Notes: generated by a model not told the origin, from the letters alone. 64,000 nucleotides of DNA from an uncultured Flavobacteriaceae bacterium (GCA_947494695.1 CANLWB010000005.1:310001-374000); one strand, 5' to 3'; positions 1-10,598 are shown, numbered from the stretch's first letter. Made by a program: numbers and translations.

Positions 1-201
1 TTTTATTGTATACTTTGAATTCCTTGTATTTAGCTTAAAATATTCCGGGATAAGTTTAAATGAATAATAAGGGTTGTAATGAACGTCTAAATCTTCATTA
101 ACCACAGTGTTTTCATGGTACTCAAAAGATTCAAAAAGTTTTTTAACCTTCGGTTCCAGAAAAAGCTTCGGAAATACCGTAATGTTTTTTGTCGTCCCCA
201 T
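1..201 (-). CDS. N-terminal part of a sixth FemAB/GNAT-like paralogue (runs off the left edge)
   Basis: Not in ORF track. Reverse strand from ATG at 201 is open to position 1: MGTTKNITVFPKLFLEPKVKKLFESFEYHENTVVNEDLDVHYNPYYSFKLIPEYFKLN...; starts 4 bp after the stop of the 206..1417 gene and resembles the N-termini of the neighbouring copies. Confidence 0.6.
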   Translation of the reverse strand, partial: MGTTKNITVFPKLFLEPKVKKLFESFEYHENTVVNEDLDVHYNPYYSFKLIPEYFKLNTRNSKYTIK

Positions 202-205
202 TATA

Positions 206-1417
206 TTATGTAACATACGTAATTAACTCTATTTTAGTTCTTTTCGTTTTGCTAATTATATATAATTCTTTTGCATTTGTGCTTTTCTGGTAAAATGCTA
301 CGTTATGAATTGACTCTTTGTTATTAAAAAGAAAATAATTGATTGACTTAATTAAGTTTTTATCAATACTACTAACAGATACAGATTCTAAGTCACTTGA
401 ATCGGGTAGTTTTGAAACCGCAGTTTCAATAACTTCATATTTATCTATAGTATTCGCTTTTCCAACATTTGCGATGTTGTACTTAAGTTTAGCATATTTG
501 CTGTAAATTTTTTGAGCATTTACTAGTTTAAGAGCTTTAATAAAGGAAAATTTAACTCTGGTTATCAAATACTTATAGTAAGCAAGTAAAGTTATACTTA
601 AACCTTGTGATCTATATACAATGTGTTTCTTGTACATGTAACTATCTGTAATGTATTTTCTTTTATGCAGAAAATCGCCTCTACCCATATCGAACACTTT
701 AATTCCTTCATTAAAACACCATTCAAGATGATTAATCATGTTTACATGTCCTAGGTTAAACATTTGATAATCTATGTCATAACAGCTGTTCCAATGTAAT
801 AATAGACCGTTATCAACAAAGTTTAGGGTTATATTTATTGGCTTCTCTTTATGGTAAATCACAAAGATGCTGGCTTTTTTTTGAAGAATTAGGGGGTACA
901 TGATGTCTTGATAGAGATCTAAATAAGGTAATTCGAAATTGTCTTCTTTTTTCTCCTCGAATCTTTTAATTGTGAGTATTTTTAAATAATCAAAAATACG
1001 GTCATACTCGCTTTTGGAAAGCTCTCCGTAATATATTTTATACTCGGGAGCAATGCATAAATCAAGTCGTTTTCTGTAGCGCTTTAGTTGTGATTTTCGT
1101 CCTCTTCCCAGTTTGGAGCTCAAGTAATGGTTTAAGTCCTGATATTGGCTTAGATTAATATAGAACCCCTCGTATAACGATGTTTTAAGTGTTTTTACCC
1201 AGGTGAATTTTTCTGGAATCTTTAGGGTTAAATAATCTGGAATATCAAAGATGGCGTATATCGTTCTGGACACTCCTGTTTCGTGTTCCGTGTCATTATT
1301 ATAAAGGGTATCCTTTGAAACATTATTTATTATTTTTGAATAAAATTCAGGGAGCGCCTTATCCTTTAAAAAAAGGTCTAAAAAGAAACTCTTTTTTATG
1401 TACTCAATTCCCCTCAT
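206..1417 (-). CDS. FemAB/GNAT-like acyltransferase (Acetyltransf_6 type), array copy 1
   Basis: Contains SQLKRYRKRLDLC...YYGELSKSEYDRIF...KRFEEKK...KASIFVIYHKEKPINITLNF...YDIDYQMFNLGHVNMINHLEWCFNEGIKVFDMGRGD; 4-bp overlap with the upstream gene. Confidence 0.8.
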   Translation of the reverse strand: MRGIEYIKKSFFLDLFLKDKALPEFYSKIINNVSKDTLYNNDTEHETGVSRTIYAIFDIPDYLTLKIPEKFTWVKTLKTSLYEGFYINLSQYQDLNHYLSSKLGRGRKSQLKRYRKRLDLCIAPEYKIYYGELSKSEYDRIFDYLKILTIKRFEEKKEDNFELPYLDLYQDIMYPLILQKKASIFVIYHKEKPINITLNFVDNGLLLHWNSCYDIDYQMFNLGHVNMINHLEWCFNEGIKVFDMGRGDFLHKRKYITDSYMYKKHIVYRSQGLSITLLAYYKYLITRVKFSFIKALKLVNAQKIYSKYAKLKYNIANVGKANTIDKYEVIETAVSKLPDSSDLESVSVSSIDKNLIKSINYFLFNNKESIHNVAFYQKSTNAKELYIISKTKRTKIELITYVT

Positions 1418-2601
1418 TGTTTTTTTACTATTAATAATTGATTTTTACGTTTTCCTCGTATTTCATAATGATTGGGAGAATCATGTCTCCTGTAAACACC
1501 TACATCATCGAGTTTTTCTTTGTTGATGAACAAAAAATTATACACGTGCTTTTTTAGACCTTTAAAGGTCTTGCTACTGTGGAAATCAATTTTTTGGGCA
1601 TATTCTTCAATGGCTATATCGTTTTTTATCAATACTTCGACCCTAGTAGCTTCATTTGAATAGTTTGATGTGAGTCTGTAAACGATTTTTTTGAAGTTGC
1701 TATAAGTTTTGTGTAGGTTATAGGATTTCATTTTTTTCACCACACTTCGTTTGAGTTTTTCTTTTAAACCTATAACAAATGCCTTAAACACATAGTACGG
1801 ATTTTTAGAATTATGTACAATCTGAATTGTATTAAAATATGAGGTTGTTGCCCATTTTTTTTTGTAATAATCATACCCTTTTAAGAGATCGTAAATGTTA
1901 TAATGATTATTGAAACACCATTCAATATTTTTAAGCATATCTATAGACCCTAAATGAAACTTTCCGTAGTCTATATCGTATCCACTAATAATATAGTATG
2001 CTAATTTGTTTTTAAACATGTTAATTCTAATACTAATTGGCACATCGTTATTATAAATAACAAATAAACTGGCAGTCTTGTTCATGATCATATCAAAACA
2101 CAAATCACGAAACTCCTGAAGGTGTTGTAGCTCATAATTAACCTCATTCTTTTCCTGAAACCTCCTAATGATAAAATCTTCTAAAAAGATAAACAACCTG
2201 TTGTACTCTTTTTTTTCTATGTGTCCATGATATGCGGCATATTTAATATTGAAGCAGGTTTCTAGTCTGCTTTTGTACCTATTAAGGTTAGACCTTGATT
2301 TTGGACTAATATGTTTGGAAAAGTATGTTTTGAAATCTACAAACAGTTGGCAATCTATAAAATGCCCCTTTATAGTTCTTACCGTATTAAACTTGATATC
2401 TCCAAGGTTGTTTAATGGGGTGATTTTTAAATATTCAGGAGCATCCTTAATAATCATTAGATTATGCGTAAATCCAGTGCTGGATGAATCTTGATTTGTA
2501 TATAAAACATTCTTATTGAAGCTAATGGATCTAAAAATAGGGGGTAAGCCTTTGTTTGTTAGAAAAGCTTTTAAAAATGTTATGTTCCTATTGCCAGCCA
2601 T
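1414..2601 (-). CDS. FemAB/GNAT-like acyltransferase, array copy 2
   Basis: KTASLFVIYNNDVPISIRIN...GYDIDYGKFHLGSIDMLKNIEWCFNNHYNIYDLLKGYDYYKKKW motif block shared with neighbours. Confidence 0.8.
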   Translation of the reverse strand: MAGNRNITFLKAFLTNKGLPPIFRSISFNKNVLYTNQDSSSTGFTHNLMIIKDAPEYLKITPLNNLGDIKFNTVRTIKGHFIDCQLFVDFKTYFSKHISPKSRSNLNRYKSRLETCFNIKYAAYHGHIEKKEYNRLFIFLEDFIIRRFQEKNEVNYELQHLQEFRDLCFDMIMNKTASLFVIYNNDVPISIRINMFKNKLAYYIISGYDIDYGKFHLGSIDMLKNIEWCFNNHYNIYDLLKGYDYYKKKWATTSYFNTIQIVHNSKNPYYVFKAFVIGLKEKLKRSVVKKMKSYNLHKTYSNFKKIVYRLTSNYSNEATRVEVLIKNDIAIEEYAQKIDFHSSKTFKGLKKHVYNFLFINKEKLDDVGVYRRHDSPNHYEIRGKRKNQLLIVKKQ

Positions 2602-2608
2602 AGATAAA

Positions 2609-3796
2609 TTAAGATTTTAAGAAACGTATTTCTCCCGTTGCTTCAATTCCTTTAACATAAAAGGTGTTAGTGTCAATTGAAGACTTAAATACTTCAATAT
2701 GTTTTAAGGACTCCTGAGACTTATATAAAAAATCGTATACCGGACGTTTTAAAAAAGTATATTGAGGCAGGATCAATTCAATTTTAATGGGGCTATTAGA
2801 ACTAAAAGCCTCATGGCTAATCTTCCTTAAAGCATATGTCCTGGGTTTTTCTGTTGTAATATTTCGGTATCTAAAATTTAAATAGGCATGATACAGTTTA
2901 TCGACGCGACATTTTTTTAGTAAAGCGACCAGCTTATAAAAACTCTTTATTCTGAAGCTTAAAAGGGTTCCTCTAATTTTAGAAAAGACACTGTTTTTGT
3001 TAAAGATTACATGTCTTTGAAAATAGTACTCGTCATCGGTTAAATACGCCTTATAGGCATAGCTTCCTTTTAATAAATCGAAAACCTGTATGTCGTTTTC
3101 ATAACACCAATGCAATTGTTTTATAAAATCTATAAAACCAATATAAAATTTAGAGTAATCGATGTCGTAAGCCCTTATATAGCCATAAATCACATGGCCT
3201 CTTATTAAATTCAAGCACATGCTTATTGGTTTATCATCATGATAAATTACAAAAAGAGCAGCTTCCTTATTCTGTATTAAGGGAAAGGCAATTTTATGAT
3301 AAACGTCCCAACGTGTGAGATCGTAGTTTTTCATTTTTTTTTCTTCGAAACGCCGCTCGATCAACTCACGAAACATTTTAAAAAGCGCTTCATACTCATC
3401 GGTTTCAATATGTCCGCAATACGTTTTATAGCTTATGTTAAAGGTGTTTTCTAATCTTTTTTGGTAAGTTCTAAATTTAGACCTTCTTTTTGAGCTAAAA
3501 TTCTGCTTAAGGTAGCCCTCAACGCCGTCATAGTTTTTTAAAACAATCATAGACCCCTTAAAACTATTGATTGTATTTACCTGCCAGTTCTTGCTGTCAA
3601 TAGTCGCTTTAAGGTAGCCCGGAAAATCATATATACAGGTCACCTGTGAATTCTCTACGTTTTCACTGGTATTACCTATATACACATTCCTGTTTGATAT
3701 CACATTTGATAGTGTCTTATAGTGAGGTAATGCTTCTCTGTTTTCTAAAAAAATGCTTAACATATCAAATTTCTTTGTCTTCATACGATTCAACAT
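2609..3796 (-). CDS. FemAB/GNAT-like acyltransferase, array copy 3
   Basis: KEAALFVIYHDDKPISMCLNL...AYDIDYSKFYIGFIDFIKQLHWCYENDIQVFDLLKGSYAYK. Confidence 0.8.
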   Translation of the reverse strand: MLNRMKTKKFDMLSIFLENREALPHYKTLSNVISNRNVYIGNTSENVENSQVTCIYDFPGYLKATIDSKNWQVNTINSFKGSMIVLKNYDGVEGYLKQNFSSKRRSKFRTYQKRLENTFNISYKTYCGHIETDEYEALFKMFRELIERRFEEKKMKNYDLTRWDVYHKIAFPLIQNKEAALFVIYHDDKPISMCLNLIRGHVIYGYIRAYDIDYSKFYIGFIDFIKQLHWCYENDIQVFDLLKGSYAYKAYLTDDEYYFQRHVIFNKNSVFSKIRGTLLSFRIKSFYKLVALLKKCRVDKLYHAYLNFRYRNITTEKPRTYALRKISHEAFSSNSPIKIELILPQYTFLKRPVYDFLYKSQESLKHIEVFKSSIDTNTFYVKGIEATGEIRFLKS

Positions 3797-3798
3797 TT

Positions 3799-4749
3799 TT
3801 AAGTTTTAATAGTCTTTAATCTGTAGCATATCTTATCAAAGTTTATAAGGTTTCCAATAATGCCTTTACTTCTTAGAAACTTTAATACTTTAAACTCCAT
3901 AAAAGCGGTTCCTGCAATCACTCTTGAAATCAACGATTTGCTGTTATAATGAATATGATAAAAGAAATCATACTCATAATTACACCATTTGTCTTTATAA
4001 CTGGATTTTCCAATGGCCAAATCGAATATCTTAATATTATTAGAGATGCACCATTCTAAATGATTTAACATACTAATATCACCCATGTTATACGAGGCAT
4101 AATCTGTATGATATGTTTGAATATGACTAAATACAATATCTGATAAATGAAAATTAAGTGTGATTGAAATAGGGGTTTCATCATCATAAATAACATGTAA
4201 GGAGGCCTTTTTATCAAGGATTTTTTTATAAGATATTGTTTTTAGGTCCTCCCAATTAGACAGATATCGATTGTTTATTTTCTTTTCCCTAAACCTTTTA
4301 ATGAGTAGCTTTTGAAACGAATTAAATATACTGTCGAAATTTGATTTATCCAGATAACCATAATATACTTTATTACGAATTTTATGATTCTGTTTCAGCT
4401 TTCTCAATTTAGAAAACAGGTTCTTACGGTTTCTTCTACTTAAATTATCTTTGAGATACTCTTCAACGTTTTTACAATGAAATAAATTAACCAAGTACCC
4501 TTTATATTGATCAATTTTCATGGTTTTTAAAGAGGAGGGGAGTTGCTTTAATTGAATGTTAAGATAAGAAGGGATATCTTTCGATATATAAGTGTTTTTG
4601 GGACTTGGCACATGAAACACCTTTATATTATTGATAATGGCATTGGTAACGGAGTTAAGAATTTTAGGCGCATAAGATGACATCGTTTTATTTTCTAAAA
4701 ATAAATCGAATACAAATTGATTTGATCCTAAAAGCCTATTAATGATCAT
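3799..4749 (-). CDS. FemAB/GNAT-like acyltransferase, array copy 4 (short form)
   Basis: KKASLHVIYDDETPISITLNF...YHTDYASYNMGDISMLNHLEWCISNNIKIFDLAIGKSSYKDKW; lacks the C-terminal module of copies 1-3. Confidence 0.8.
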   Translation of the reverse strand: MIINRLLGSNQFVFDLFLENKTMSSYAPKILNSVTNAIINNIKVFHVPSPKNTYISKDIPSYLNIQLKQLPSSLKTMKIDQYKGYLVNLFHCKNVEEYLKDNLSRRNRKNLFSKLRKLKQNHKIRNKVYYGYLDKSNFDSIFNSFQKLLIKRFREKKINNRYLSNWEDLKTISYKKILDKKASLHVIYDDETPISITLNFHLSDIVFSHIQTYHTDYASYNMGDISMLNHLEWCISNNIKIFDLAIGKSSYKDKWCNYEYDFFYHIHYNSKSLISRVIAGTAFMEFKVLKFLRSKGIIGNLINFDKICYRLKTIKT

Positions 4750-4761
4750 ATTGTTATTGGG

Positions 4762-5769
4762 TTACATGTTTTTTTTATTTCTTAAAAAAGAAAGTTTGTG
4801 GGCGATATGCATTAAATCATTACGTCTTAAAAAGAGTTTTAAATGATAAAACCTATAATAAGCGAGTGCGAGTAAGCAGGAAAAAAGCGATTTTTTATCA
4901 TAATATATATGATACTCGAACCAGTAAATTTGATTAGACCATCGTTTTTTATATTCAAAATAACCTTTAGAAAAATCGAGTGCTTTCAATTTATGCTCAA
5001 TACACCATTCTAATTGCTTCATAATCCCAACAATTCCCAGTCGGTATTTTGAATAGTCTATATCGAATACTCTAATGACATCGAACATGATCTTTTCGGA
5101 AAAATTCGTTAACGTAATAGTTATGGGTTTTTCACCATCATAAGTAACGAAAAGAGCAGCTTTTTTTTTGCGAATCATTGGTAGCGTTACTTCTTCATAG
5201 AATTTCCATTCTTTGGGGGTTAGATTGTTATTTATGGTCTTTTTATTAAGGAAACGTTTTCTTAAGAGTTCTTTAAACCTCGCAAAAATAAAATGATATT
5301 CCTCATCACTAATCTCTCCAAAAAACACCTTGTGTCTGCAATTAAATGAACTTTCTATTTTTCTTTTATAGGACCTAAATTTATACCTGCTTTTTCTACT
5401 AATCACATCGGCCATATACTCATTAAGCGAATTGTAATTATCTAGCACACAGCGAAAACCTGGATATTGTATAACTTTATGTAAGCTAAGATTGGGCTCG
5501 TTGGATCGTGTTTTAACTTTGGTGTGATTTGGCACATCGTAAACAATGAATACACGACCTTTATAATCTTGGTCTTCAATATTCTTAGAAACCCTATAAT
5601 TAATCCCTTTTGTATTTGTTTTGCCAATATTACAGTATAACGGCAAGTATTTGTTTTTAACAAATTCGAGTTTTGGGATAATATTAAACGTAAAGTATTC
5701 TCTCTCATAATAAAAATGCTTGAGCCAAATGGTTTTAAATGTTTCAGATAAAAAGGGGTTACGTTTCAT
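4762..5769 (-). CDS. FemAB/GNAT-like acyltransferase, array copy 5 (short form)
   Basis: KKAALFVTYDGEKPITITLTNF...FDIDYSKYRLGIVGIMKQLEWCIEHKLKALDFSKGYFEYKKRW. Confidence 0.8.
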   Translation of the reverse strand: MKRNPFLSETFKTIWLKHFYYEREYFTFNIIPKLEFVKNKYLPLYCNIGKTNTKGINYRVSKNIEDQDYKGRVFIVYDVPNHTKVKTRSNEPNLSLHKVIQYPGFRCVLDNYNSLNEYMADVISRKSRYKFRSYKRKIESSFNCRHKVFFGEISDEEYHFIFARFKELLRKRFLNKKTINNNLTPKEWKFYEEVTLPMIRKKKAALFVTYDGEKPITITLTNFSEKIMFDVIRVFDIDYSKYRLGIVGIMKQLEWCIEHKLKALDFSKGYFEYKKRWSNQIYWFEYHIYYDKKSLFSCLLALAYYRFYHLKLFLRRNDLMHIAHKLSFLRNKKNM

Positions 5770-5774
5770 ATGTT

Positions 5775-6722
5775 TTATGAATGATTACTTTTTAAGTATA
5801 CTTTAATATCTTCAGTTAGTTCTTTTGTGAAGCTCTTCGCGCTTTCAGACTCTAAATGAGAGCCGTCATAGGTCTTATATTTATAAGATTTATTTATATA
5901 GTTGAAATATGGTATCTTATAAAACTCTGCTATACTATCCATTTCATAATCAAAACTTTTCCAAAGTTCAGTTTCAAACTTTAAGAACTCATAGGTTGAT
6001 GGCATTCTTACTAGAAAGACATCTCCTTTGGATTTAAGATATGTAATGGTCTTTATAAAATATTCATATCGGTATTGGGATATTTGCTGTGTCTTTATCT
6101 TTTCTTTATAGAATTTCATGTTTAAAGCCTTCCAATTTTCAATATCTGTAGCTCTAATGGTATCATGCTTTCCCTCCAACTTAACTTCATTCCATCCGTT
6201 ATGATGCGAGGTCCTATGATTCCATTGATCTAAATCATGAAAACCATTATATAATGGAGCTCCATAAGCATTCATTATATAATTGTAATTAGGTGAGGAG
6301 GTGTAATTGTCTACTTTTCCAAGCGTTAACCTTTTGTCATACTTTAAAGTTTTTTTAGCATCGAGCCCTATAGGAGCTGTAAAGTTCCCTGGACTAATCG
6401 ATATTATAAAAACACCATTTCTTGTATGTATTTTATTTTTGATGGCTTTTAAATAAACTTCCCCAAAATGGGCTTCATTAAGGGCAAAATTTACCATAGG
6501 TAAGTCAAAAAGACCATAATCCGCTAAGGCTTCTTCAATAATAGTAGGGGATATGCCTTCATTAGCTCTGGATAATCCTAAAATTAAGCCTCCCGCTTGT
6601 TGCGTGAATTTATTATAGTGTGGATCGACAAAATCGTTTGCCAGTTTATTTACAAAGAACAGGTAGACCATAATAAATGTTATGGCTATCAAAACTAATT
6701 TTATAACGAAACTCTTTAACAT
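5775..6722 (-). CDS. Membrane-anchored SGNH/AlgJ-DltD-like protein, likely MBOAT partner
   Basis: One N-terminal TM helix; GLSRANEGI (Ser block-like) and C-terminal YDGSHLESESAKSFTKEL (DxxH-like); 3 bp from the MBOAT gene. Confidence 0.6.
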   Translation of the reverse strand: MLKSFVIKLVLIAITFIMVYLFFVNKLANDFVDPHYNKFTQQAGGLILGLSRANEGISPTIIEEALADYGLFDLPMVNFALNEAHFGEVYLKAIKNKIHTRNGVFIISISPGNFTAPIGLDAKKTLKYDKRLTLGKVDNYTSSPNYNYIMNAYGAPLYNGFHDLDQWNHRTSHHNGWNEVKLEGKHDTIRATDIENWKALNMKFYKEKIKTQQISQYRYEYFIKTITYLKSKGDVFLVRMPSTYEFLKFETELWKSFDYEMDSIAEFYKIPYFNYINKSYKYKTYDGSHLESESAKSFTKELTEDIKVYLKSNHS

Positions 6723-6725
6723 AAC

Positions 6726-8174
6726 TTAAAATTGAAAATAGATGAAAGAATTTTGTCTATTAATAGCAAACAAAACAATAACAAAAATATAAGCAAAGCA
6801 CATGCTGTATTTAGCTATTCTTGTTTGTTTCGTAAACAGTTCGTAAACCTTACGATTGCCTTTATAATAATAGATAATTTGCACAATAAAAATCAAAACA
6901 AGACATAGGAATAACTCGAAAGCATTACCTAATATATTTATATGTAAACTACCTTGAAATGAGAACATGTGTTCTAAATAAACCAGAGCTTGATGTATAT
7001 TGGGAGATCTAAAAAACACAAGAGTTATAGTCATTAGGCCTAAAACTGTGAGCCATCCCAAAAATCCACGTATCCGCTTTGAAAGCTTTAATGTATTGAA
7101 AACTTTATGACGAAATTGTTTTGTTGAAATCTCAACAACTAATATAAAGGCATTTAAAAGGCTCCAGATAACAAATGTCCAGTTCGCTCCATGCCATAAG
7201 CCGTTTATGAAAAACACAATAACAACAGCTATAAGTCTTGGGTACCTGGCATTTCTAATCAATGGTTTATATATAAAGTCTCTTAGCCAAGTTGTAAAAG
7301 AAATATGCCAACGCTTCCAGAACTCTTCGAAAGAAGTTGAGAAAATAGGGCGATTAAAATTTTGAATTAAATCATATCCCATGGTTTTCGCCGCACCAAT
7401 TGCTATGGATGTATACGCCGAAAAATCATAATAAATTTGAAAACAAAAGAAAAGACTTCCTAAAATTAGAGATAAACTGTGAGGAGAATCCGGGGTTCTA
7501 AATGCTTCATCTACGTACAACCCCAATCTATCGGCCACAACAAGTTTTAAAAAGAACCCCCATGCCATCATTATAATCCCTTTCTTAATGTTGTTAACAT
7601 TAATAGTGGTTTCAGACTTCAATTGAGGGAGCAGTCGAGAGGCACGTTCTACGGGGCCTGCTACCAATTGTGGAAAGAACGAAACATATAATGCAAACTT
7701 ACCCATATGGCGTTCCGGCTTAATTACTCCTCTATAAATCTCAATGGAATAACTCATCGTTTGGAAGGTGTAAAAGCTAATGCCAACAGGAAGAAGTATC
7801 TGGTTAAAATTATATGAGTTAGCCTCTTGTTTGGTTAACACGTCAGATCCAAAAAAATCTAAAACCCATTCTATATTATTTGTAAAAAAAAACAAGTATT
7901 TAAAAACGAACAGAATGCCAATATTTGTTATAATGCTTAATATTAAATAGCGCTTCTTTATGGATGCTTTTTTTGCTTCATGCATCTTTATTCCGCAGAA
8001 ATAATCGACAAGGGTAGAAACAATTAATAATATAATAAGCTCGGGTTCGTGAGCTATGTAGAAAAAGTAGCTTCCGAGTAAAAGCCACAGCCATCTGTAT
8101 TTATGATTTAGACTATAAAATCCTATAATCATAACAGGGAAAAAGATTAGAAATTCAAACGAGTTAAATAGCAT
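6726..8174 (-). CDS. MBOAT family O-acyltransferase (AlgI-like)
   Basis: Polytopic; LLPVGISFYTFQTMSYSIEIYRG, FFPQLVAGPVERASRLLPQ, NFNRPIFSTSFEEFWKRWHISFTTWLRDFIYKPL, FFINGLWHGANWTFVIWSLLNA are classic AlgI motifs. Confidence 0.95.
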   Translation of the reverse strand: MLFNSFEFLIFFPVMIIGFYSLNHKYRWLWLLLGSYFFYIAHEPELIILLIVSTLVDYFCGIKMHEAKKASIKKRYLILSIITNIGILFVFKYLFFFTNNIEWVLDFFGSDVLTKQEANSYNFNQILLPVGISFYTFQTMSYSIEIYRGVIKPERHMGKFALYVSFFPQLVAGPVERASRLLPQLKSETTINVNNIKKGIIMMAWGFFLKLVVADRLGLYVDEAFRTPDSPHSLSLILGSLFFCFQIYYDFSAYTSIAIGAAKTMGYDLIQNFNRPIFSTSFEEFWKRWHISFTTWLRDFIYKPLIRNARYPRLIAVVIVFFINGLWHGANWTFVIWSLLNAFILVVEISTKQFRHKVFNTLKLSKRIRGFLGWLTVLGLMTITLVFFRSPNIHQALVYLEHMFSFQGSLHINILGNAFELFLCLVLIFIVQIIYYYKGNRKVYELFTKQTRIAKYSMCFAYIFVIVLFAINRQNSFIYFQF

Positions 8175-8672: not shown

Positions 8673-10598
8673 TTGGAAAGATTATTAACGCGCCAAATTA
8701 TGATTATTATGAAAAGGATTTTAAAAACCATGCTACTTATTTTGATCTTTATGATATCCTCGATATCATGTAACAAACAAGAATTATTCGTCGAAGAACC
8801 CGTTGTCGTCGTTGATGACGACAAACCTGATGATACCGGTAACACCGACGATGATGATGATGACACAGACGCCACTTTGCCTTGCGATTTCACCTTAGAT
8901 AATGTTGCCGCAAATTCAACAATTATAATTGATTGTATTATGGATTTGGATGGCCAAACAGTTAACCTTCCTGCCAATGTTACGTTGAGCTATGAAGGAG
9001 GGGATATTATTAATGGTACTATTAATTTTGGAGACGGTGGTATAATAGATGGTGATTTAATGAATTCTACTTTAACTTTTACAGGATCCAGTCCACAGGT
9101 TAAAGATCCGGTTTTTACATTTAAACCAGACCGTTGGGGAATTGTAGAAGGGAAAGTTTCAGATGAAGTAGCTTTAAATAACAAAAATGTGCTTAATTCG
9201 TTGATCTCGGAAACGAAAAAGCTTGGAGTCACTACATTTGAAATTGATGAAATGGATGCATATTTTGATGTGAGATCGTTTCTGGACAATTCTAAATATT
9301 CCATTGAACGTTCTATTTCGTTACCTTCCGACTTTACATTGAAAATGTCTGATAAAACACACATACGTGTACAACCTAATCAAACGCATTCTTACATCTT
9401 GATGGGGATTTATAAGGGAGATAATATAACGGTTATTGGTGGTAATCTATATGGTGATCGATGGGAACACGATTATTCTCCATTTAGTGATCTAAAAAAT
9501 AGACCTAGAAACTCTCATGAATGGGGACACGTTTTTCAAATAGCAGGAGGACGAAATATTGTGGTTGATGGCGTTCATATATCGGATGCCTCTGGTGATG
9601 GTTTCGGTGTTCATGGAAGTTTAATAAGAAACCCTGATGGTACACCTCAGGCCGGGGAAATTGTTTCTCAAAATGTAACCTTAAGAAATAGTACAGTTGA
9701 AGCCTCAAGGCGAAATGGATTAAGTTTACTTGATGGAGATGGAATACTTATAGAGAACTGTAATATTATTGATACCGCTCAAGGAGAAAGCCCTTCTGGT
9801 GTTGAGTTTAGTTCTGCAGGTACCTGGCCAAAATATGGTATTAGTTTTGAAGCGTGGAGACAACGAGTAAATGGCGAATTACGTGAATTCAATAAAATAG
9901 AGAATGTTACCTTAAGAGGAAATACATTTACTGGTAATTCTGCTGGAGATGTTGTATTGTATACGTGTAGCAAAATTACTATTGAAGATAATTTCTTTGA
10001 TAGCCGTATAGGAAATATAGCAGCCTTTGATATTGTAATTCGAAATAATAGATTTAAAGCAAGAATAGAGAAAGATGGGAAACCATACAACTACGGTATT
10101 AGTATTGCTTCAAGAATTGTTGAAGGCCAAGAAATGAACTATAACTATACTATTTCTGGTAATAGAATGGAAGGCTATGGAAATGCCATGATTTTATCTG
10201 GAAAAGATTTTAAAGTGCATAACAATACGTTTGTTAATAATGGAAACGCTTTAGGGCTTGAGAGTCTTGATGGAGGAGAATTCTATAAAAACAAATTCAA
10301 CTCTAATGTACCTATAAGTCTTGGGTATTTTTCAAGAGGTGGTGATCTTAAAAATGTAAGTGTTCGCGATGAAATTATAAACGTAGATTACAGACCAATT
10401 AATTTTAGAAAAATAAAGGCCGCTTCAGGTACACCTTTAACATTTACTAATTGTGAAATGATTTCGGCAGATAATAAAGCTAATTTTATTGAGGATTGTG
10501 AAAACATATCTATTACAGATAACATTATCAATACAGATTTTAGCATTTACACATCACAAAACATTGTCATTGAAAATAACAGATCCCCTGGAAACTAG
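8673..10598 (+). CDS. Lipoprotein with right-handed parallel beta-helix domain; likely true start 8700 or 8709
   Basis: MKRILKTMLLILIFMISSISC lipobox, Asp-rich linker (VVVVDDDKPDDTGNTDDDDDDTDAT), then repeated NVTLRNSTVE / ILIENCNI / ITIEDNFF / IVIRNNRF beta-helix rungs. Confidence 0.85.
   Translation: MERLLTRQIMIIMKRILKTMLLILIFMISSISCNKQELFVEEPVVVVDDDKPDDTGNTDDDDDDTDATLPCDFTLDNVAANSTIIIDCIMDLDGQTVNLPANVTLSYEGGDIINGTINFGDGGIIDGDLMNSTLTFTGSSPQVKDPVFTFKPDRWGIVEGKVSDEVALNNKNVLNSLISETKKLGVTTFEIDEMDAYFDVRSFLDNSKYSIERSISLPSDFTLKMSDKTHIRVQPNQTHSYILMGIYKGDNITVIGGNLYGDRWEHDYSPFSDLKNRPRNSHEWGHVFQIAGGRNIVVDGVHISDASGDGFGVHGSLIRNPDGTPQAGEIVSQNVTLRNSTVEASRRNGLSLLDGDGILIENCNIIDTAQGESPSGVEFSSAGTWPKYGISFEAWRQRVNGELREFNKIENVTLRGNTFTGNSAGDVVLYTCSKITIEDNFFDSRIGNIAAFDIVIRNNRFKARIEKDGKPYNYGISIASRIVEGQEMNYNYTISGNRMEGYGNAMILSGKDFKVHNNTFVNNGNALGLESLDGGEFYKNKFNSNVPISLGYFSRGGDLKNVSVRDEIINVDYRPINFRKIKAASGTPLTFTNCEMISADNKANFIEDCENISITDNIINTDFSIYTSQNIVIENNRSPGN

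Follow-up and report, generated by a model that had tools for sequence, protein, structure and literature searches.

The window considered in the current analysis is a stretch of 64,000 nucleotides (G000:C5:310001-374000) within the 5.49-Mb genome of an uncultured Flavobacteriaceae bacterium. At its left end lies a tandem array of genes encoding FemAB/GNAT-like transferases, accompanied by the genes of a membrane O-acyltransferase (MBOAT) and of an SGNH-like protein:

1..216, minus strand: 5' end of F6 (clade C6), 382 aa; the whole gene is C5:309068-310216 (L001:17068-18216)
206..1417, minus strand: F5 (clade C5), 403 aa, PF13480
1414..2601, minus strand: F4 (clade C4), 395 aa, PF13480
2609..3796, minus strand: F3 (clade C3), 395 aa, PF13480; AlphaFold2 model m5a429bcd7d6e
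3799..4749, minus strand: F2 (clade C2), 316 aa, PF13480; without C-terminal tail
4762..5769, minus strand: F1 (clade C1), 335 aa, PF13480; first gene of the array
5775..6722, minus strand: SGNH-like partner (family 13), 315 aa, with GLSRA and DGSHL motifs
6726..8174, minus strand: AlgI-type MBOAT, PF03062, in the same operon as the array

The first-pass annotation had described five complete consecutive reading frames on the minus strand, spaced by -4 to +12 bp, as part of an array of at least six members. The five frames are present at 206-5769 with gaps of +12, +2, +7 and -4 bp from F1 to F5, and they are preceded by the SGNH-like gene at +5 bp and by the MBOAT gene a further 3 bp away. F6 overlaps F5 by 11 bp and crosses the edge of the window. 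On extension of the sequence to the left of position 1, the next gene after F6, at a distance of about 155 bp, is one for a GT4 glycosyltransferase, so the array comprises exactly six members.

All the six array proteins belong to the family PF13480 (Acetyltransf_6), with scores of 34-60 bits (E-values of 3e-8 to 4e-16) against a curated cut-off of 22 bits, which bears out the earlier assignment to an Acetyltransf_6 or FemAB-like family. The same domain has been recognised at E <= 0.001 in 91 of 91 relatives. In the Pfam scan none of the six matches the FemAB profile PF02388 at E <= 0.01, and the match of F3 to PF04339 (FemAB_like) lies below the cut-off; in the NCBIfam scan no named family is matched above its cut-off by any of the six, and TIGR03019 is not matched. 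The collinear block of motifs noted in the first-pass annotation is indeed shared; however, the pairwise identities of 24-33% among F1-F6 extend over 299-392 aligned residues, nearly the entire length, and the homology is therefore full-length and goes beyond the block. A C-terminal tail of about 70 residues is common to F3-F6 and missing from F1 and F2. This tail is also seen in C1 proteins of 410-440 residues and is missing from other short C1 and C2 proteins. Of the nine PF13480 domains encoded in the genome, six belong to the array, two to a single fusion protein whose gene lies about 10 kb downstream of it, and one is found elsewhere. The closest named relative in the contig scan described below is Flavivirga aquimarina, with 72% identity in F3, from which it is inferred that the organism belongs to Flavivirga or stands close to it.

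As for the MBOAT/SGNH pair pointed out earlier, the MBOAT is confirmed by its match to PF03062 (E-value 1.6e-27), whereas its partner has no match in Pfam or NCBIfam and resembles SGNH proteins at the level of motifs, the label having been read from GLSRA and DGSHL in the sequence. A divergent beta-helix protein (PF13229; window 8673-10598, plus strand) adjoins the MBOAT gene on the opposite strand, an arrangement also found in Flavivirga-type arrays of several genera.

Beyond the GT4 glycosyltransferase gene, the same direction is kept by genes for a CapK-like protein (labelled from sequence resemblance, with no Pfam match), a GNAT-like protein referred to as f12, a DltA-like adenylating enzyme (NCBIfam AA-adenyl-dom, E-value 2e-88, below the cut-off) and a PP-binding carrier protein of 82 residues. 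The last three (L001:11562-14413, minus strand) form a trio that recurs with or without a FemAB array and probably constitutes a separate acyl- or aminoacyl-transfer unit. Two PglC-type sugar transferases are encoded further along. The fusion protein mentioned above has 931 residues (L001:5427-8222, minus strand; genome C5:297427-300222), combines a PglD/NeuD-like acyltransferase with two FemAB domains and matches TIGR03019 below the cut-off. On the other side of the array the window encodes Wzc, flippase-like and polymerase-like proteins, a UDP-GlcNAc 4,6-dehydratase, a LegC-type aminotransferase and nucleotide-sugar dehydrogenases; the flippase and polymerase labels come from reading of the sequence, and several NCBIfam matches in the locus are below the curated cut-offs. 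The link to a cell-envelope glycan proposed earlier is supported by this context of a Wzx/Wzy-type polysaccharide locus.

The same context bears on the idea that the array builds an interpeptide bridge of peptidoglycan in the manner of staphylococcal FemXAB, for which it could be said that FemX is the closest solved structure. The peptidoglycan of Flavobacteriaceae generally has direct cross-links, the examined loci are mostly glycan loci, and the array itself sits in a Wzx/Wzy/Wzc polysaccharide cluster. On this genomic context a role in bridge formation is considered extremely unlikely and has been rejected.

Probable NRPS genes are present elsewhere in the genome, on the contigs C4, C18, C24 and C26, as exceptionally long open frames (up to 4189 aa) in which several adenylation-like domains are encoded. 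A possible connection of the locus with anti-phage defence has been set aside, as PADLOC gave one weak sub-domain match (Cas2_II, E-value 0.005) that was taken as chance.

The AlphaFold model of F3 (pLDDT 94.5, pTM 0.91) has been compared with the structures in the PDB. The best fold match is FemX (4ii9, E-value 3.7e-8, 248 aligned columns), followed by the aminoacyl-tRNA peptide synthases Sbb17 and Sba18 (E-values of 1e-7 to 7e-7), and the top matches further include MprF/PGS domains, ATE1, FemA and 2hqy, a structure of unknown function. CoA-dependent tandem GNATs rank later, from about 7e-5. The TM-scores across these matches are modest (0.3-0.5); that for FemX is only 0.37-0.44 at an identity of about 12%, which places the relation of F3 to FemX at the level of the superfamily. 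A double-GNAT architecture, as in the FemABX enzymes, may be present in F3, the 248 columns being aligned with TM-scores of 0.37-0.43. In contrast, the model of the neighbouring f12 (pLDDT 84.3) matches CoA-dependent tandem GNATs and N-myristoyltransferase (NMT), and the fold comparison is thus able to separate the two kinds of enzyme. A PDB sequence search with the F3 profile retrieved nothing at E <= 1. FemX has been reached only through the fold comparison and through a bridge formed by the fused FemAB domain of the same cluster, the first FemAB domain of the fusion protein being aligned with FemX in a PDB sequence search with an E-value of 3e-5.

In the profile alignment through this fused domain, Tyr248-Lys249 of F3 fall onto Phe304-Lys305 of FemX. 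The lysine, which is part of a G...[FY]K motif, is conserved in all six array proteins and in 410 of the 410 array proteins aligned, and Gly244 (F3 numbering) in 409 of them, the rows of some genomes being counted twice in this alignment. Lys305 of FemX has been proposed as the catalytic residue, and its counterpart in DhpH-C, Lys329, has been verified as essential (PMC12945691). The structural evidence favours, short of proof, an aminoacyl-tRNA over a generic acyl donor. A high pI and a basic helix count as weak evidence of tRNA binding, other proteins of the loci being equally basic, and the pI has been dropped as an argument, a high value being also missing from the related FemB4 proteins.

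The donors could also be thioesters made by the cluster itself, with the DltA-like ligase and the 82-residue carrier, or the CapK-like ligase, supplying acyl- or aminoacyl-ACP or -CoA to the FemAB-like enzymes. Ligase and carrier are encoded downstream in the same direction, the ligase retains, as read from its sequence, the FDxS aspartate expected for alpha-amino acids, and DltA-like genes occur in 23 of the 74 named loci. However, f12, a GNAT of the CoA/NMT type, directly precedes ligase and carrier in most of the loci having them and would be their natural partner, and two near-complete genomes with arrays, Cellulophaga sp. F20128 (G205) and G121, encode no DltA-like ligase at E <= 1e-40. 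Both observations weaken the ligase and carrier as a general donor system, and the fold of the array proteins sides with the tRNA-dependent enzymes, so that supply from thioesters appears unlikely.

Relatives of the array proteins have been surveyed in other genomes. With a profile of the six members (E <= 1e-12), matches have been identified in 90 of 400 sampled Flavobacteriaceae genomes, belonging to 69 of 237 genera; as four candidates were scored per genome, the copy numbers in this sample are lower bounds. A phylum-wide sample of 396 genomes contained five with matches, all of them Flavobacteriaceae, the family affiliation being listed for these positive genomes. For the scan of contigs of species representatives, profile A2 proved too diverse and profile A3, made of C3 only, was used in its place, yielding 74 loci that are nearly all from Flavobacteriaceae. 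When 40 loci of 19-20 kb were read together with the 74 named loci, the non-redundant arrays of three or more tandem members numbered 49, of which nine have three members, five have four, eleven have five, fourteen have six and ten have seven. The array of the window is hence not a one-off, the number of members varying from three to seven among these arrays.

The complete block of MBOAT, SGNH-like protein of family 13 and C1 to C6 recurs in Flavivirga, Wocania, Gaetbulibacter, Flaviramulus, Flagellimonas sp. 389 and Cellulophaga fucicola, with flanks that differ between these genera. At 16 named array loci a family 13 gene separates the MBOAT gene from the array. Lone copies of the C1 clade are encoded in loci of many other genomes, such as those of Algibacter, often together with FemB4, which is another FemAB-like protein, with a transferase of the PglC type and with an MBOAT pair.

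In a tree of 100 proteins, members from the same position of Flavivirga-type arrays group together whatever their genus, giving one clade per position. Where profiles for the six clades allow three or more members of an array to be classed with confidence, the order C1, C2, C3, C4, C5, C6 is kept in every case (25 of 25), with zero inversions, although many arrays are related by descent and the counts of order are therefore non-independent trials. C1 is the first member in 41 of the 49 arrays, and the last member is C6-like in 44 of them, a label that applies loosely to the more distant ones. Where Flaviramulus, Gaetbulibacter and some Flavivirga have arrays of seven members, C3 is duplicated. 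For the positions tested, dN/dS is 0.05-0.21 wherever dS is measurable, and these positions are under purifying selection. An old duplication followed by specialisation, as suggested in the first-pass annotation, is well supported by the separate clade of each position across genera and by this selection. Taken together with an envelope glycan as the target, the suggestion is partly supported, and its further point, a different position or donor for each copy, is presumed.

A second type of array, encoded in other genera, has its own position clades, mostly with C1 first and with its own fixed terminal clade last. Arrays of this type have been identified at L040, L042, L048, L049, L052, L067, L113, L119 and L136, of which L042 is the one that does not start with C1. 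A Cupin_8/JmjC-type protein is encoded within arrays of Arenibacter (L083, L089 and L129), between the last two members; as a speculation, it would fit the hydroxylation of an added amino acid. In Arenibacter echinorum (L107), four of the five array members (p1-p4) group in a single recent cluster; amplification has been local here, which sets this array apart from the old ones. Members of about 154-160 residues, probably decaying copies, lie beside full-length ones at L043 and L102 (Arenibacter sp. F26102).

The recent amplification in A. echinorum (L107 p1-p4) and the short or interrupted members of some other arrays would be in keeping with a reservoir of partly redundant copies, maintained for antigenic or phage-escape variation of the glycan. 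The copies, with their 24-33% identity, their specificity for positions in different genera and the purifying selection acting on them, are the opposite of an interchangeable repertoire, and this explanation is regarded as very unlikely.

The copies may also act in parallel, each independently transferring an N-acyl or aminoacyl group to a different sugar within a large repeat unit. The array is part of a large polysaccharide locus with several glycosyltransferases, the known O-polysaccharides of Flavobacteriaceae bear varied N-acyl groups on 4-amino sugars (PMC6519341; PMC3210612), and the kept order could result from plain inheritance. On the other hand, the copies are mutually homologous and are not drawn from different acyltransferase families, and the predominance of C1 at the first position, together with the loss of internal copies with the order intact, is more naturally explained by stepwise extension. 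Parallel decoration is accordingly seen as possible but somewhat unlikely. Of the two modes, stepwise action is the one favoured by the strict order; such an order can also reflect simple vertical inheritance of tandem duplicates and is no proof of sequential chemistry.

The reading preferred here is that the array encodes ordered, position-specialised FemX-like aminoacyltransferases that decorate an amino-sugar glycan stepwise, which we put forward tentatively, as quite possible but short of probable. F1-F6 would be FemX-like transferases of the GNAT fold, most likely taking amino acids from aminoacyl-tRNA and attaching them in the order C1 to C6 onto an amino group of a surface-glycan precursor. 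The 4-amino-sugar pathway genes and the PglD-like/FemAB fusion point to the amino group of a 4-amino-sugar as the best guess for the acceptor. In S. aureus, FemX adds the first residue, FemA residues 2-3 and FemB residues 4-5 (PMC4964394). By analogy with this succession, the aminoacyl chain would be begun by C1 and lengthened by the later enzymes, its length being set by the number of genes. The predicted product is a short non-ribosomal peptide, or a side chain resembling a peptide, that is assembled in the cytoplasm. Subsequent export of the unit would fall to the Wzx/Wzy machinery encoded in the cluster, and its O-acylation on the outside to the MBOAT/SGNH pair. Cellulophaga fucicola is the sole array-bearing species for which a published O-polysaccharide has been found, and this polymer, Gal-Glc-Pse, is without amino acids (PMC3210612). 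It counts against the peptide reading, and it may be the product of another locus.

In its wider form, the proposal is that of a tRNA-fed assembly line for non-ribosomal peptides made of discrete FemX-like enzymes, in which the order of the genes is the order of action and their number the length of the chain. A surface polysaccharide of a Gram-negative family would then bear the peptide, and the resulting capsules or exopolysaccharides would resemble glycopeptides whose sequence is specific to the species; this wider form is considered possible but somewhat unlikely. The shorter and longer arrays of sister genera represent a natural series for relating gene order to the structure of the product.

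In the first-pass annotation such an array beside an MBOAT/SGNH pair was not recognised as a described system, and no prior description has been found in the open-access literature searched. As far as this literature shows, orthology by position, a strict order and FemX-like features have not been described in combination.

Several known systems share some of the features of the array. The array cluster resembles DltABCD, which is responsible for D-alanylation of teichoic acids, in that it encodes a ligase of the DltA type together with a small carrier, an MBOAT and an SGNH-like protein; DltABCD is without FemAB-like enzymes, whereas the array cluster pairs ligase and carrier with the GNAT f12. 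The R-group genes of the O-polysaccharide of F. psychrophilum (wfp; a PglD homologue and ACP) are a precedent at the level of the family, with a variable N-acyl group on a 4-amino sugar (PMC6519341), but they comprise a PglD-type acyltransferase and ACP, with no FemAB array described. The FemAB XrtA/PEP-CTERM-associated protein (TIGR03019) and the PglD-FemAB fusions likewise bring a FemAB-like domain into polysaccharide loci, as single genes or as a fusion, in contrast to an array without a TIGR03019 match. The tRNA-dependent ligases of natural products (Sbb17/Sba18, DhpH-C, PacB, VlmA and Orf11) have a FemX-type fold and add single amino acids to small molecules; they differ in that the review (PMC12945691) describes one or two of them per pathway, neither in arrays nor in glycan loci.

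A further related system is that of FemX, FemA and FemB of S. aureus, with FemX of Weissella viridescens. It has in common with the array the fold of the GNAT superfamily, the closest matches in the PDB, the lysine aligned with Lys305 and the presence of several paralogues in one pathway, the Fem enzymes acting in sequence. The array differs in its location in a polysaccharide locus, in having six to seven tandem paralogues in a fixed order, in belonging to PF13480 rather than PF02388 with about 12% identity, and in its extra C-terminal tail. The known sequential set of FemX, FemA and FemB consists of three enzymes, whereas the ordered array has five to seven that are specific for their positions. 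If the donor is aminoacyl-tRNA, tRNA-dependent non-ribosomal peptide synthesis would reach, beyond peptidoglycan and small molecules, the surface polysaccharides of abundant marine bacteria.
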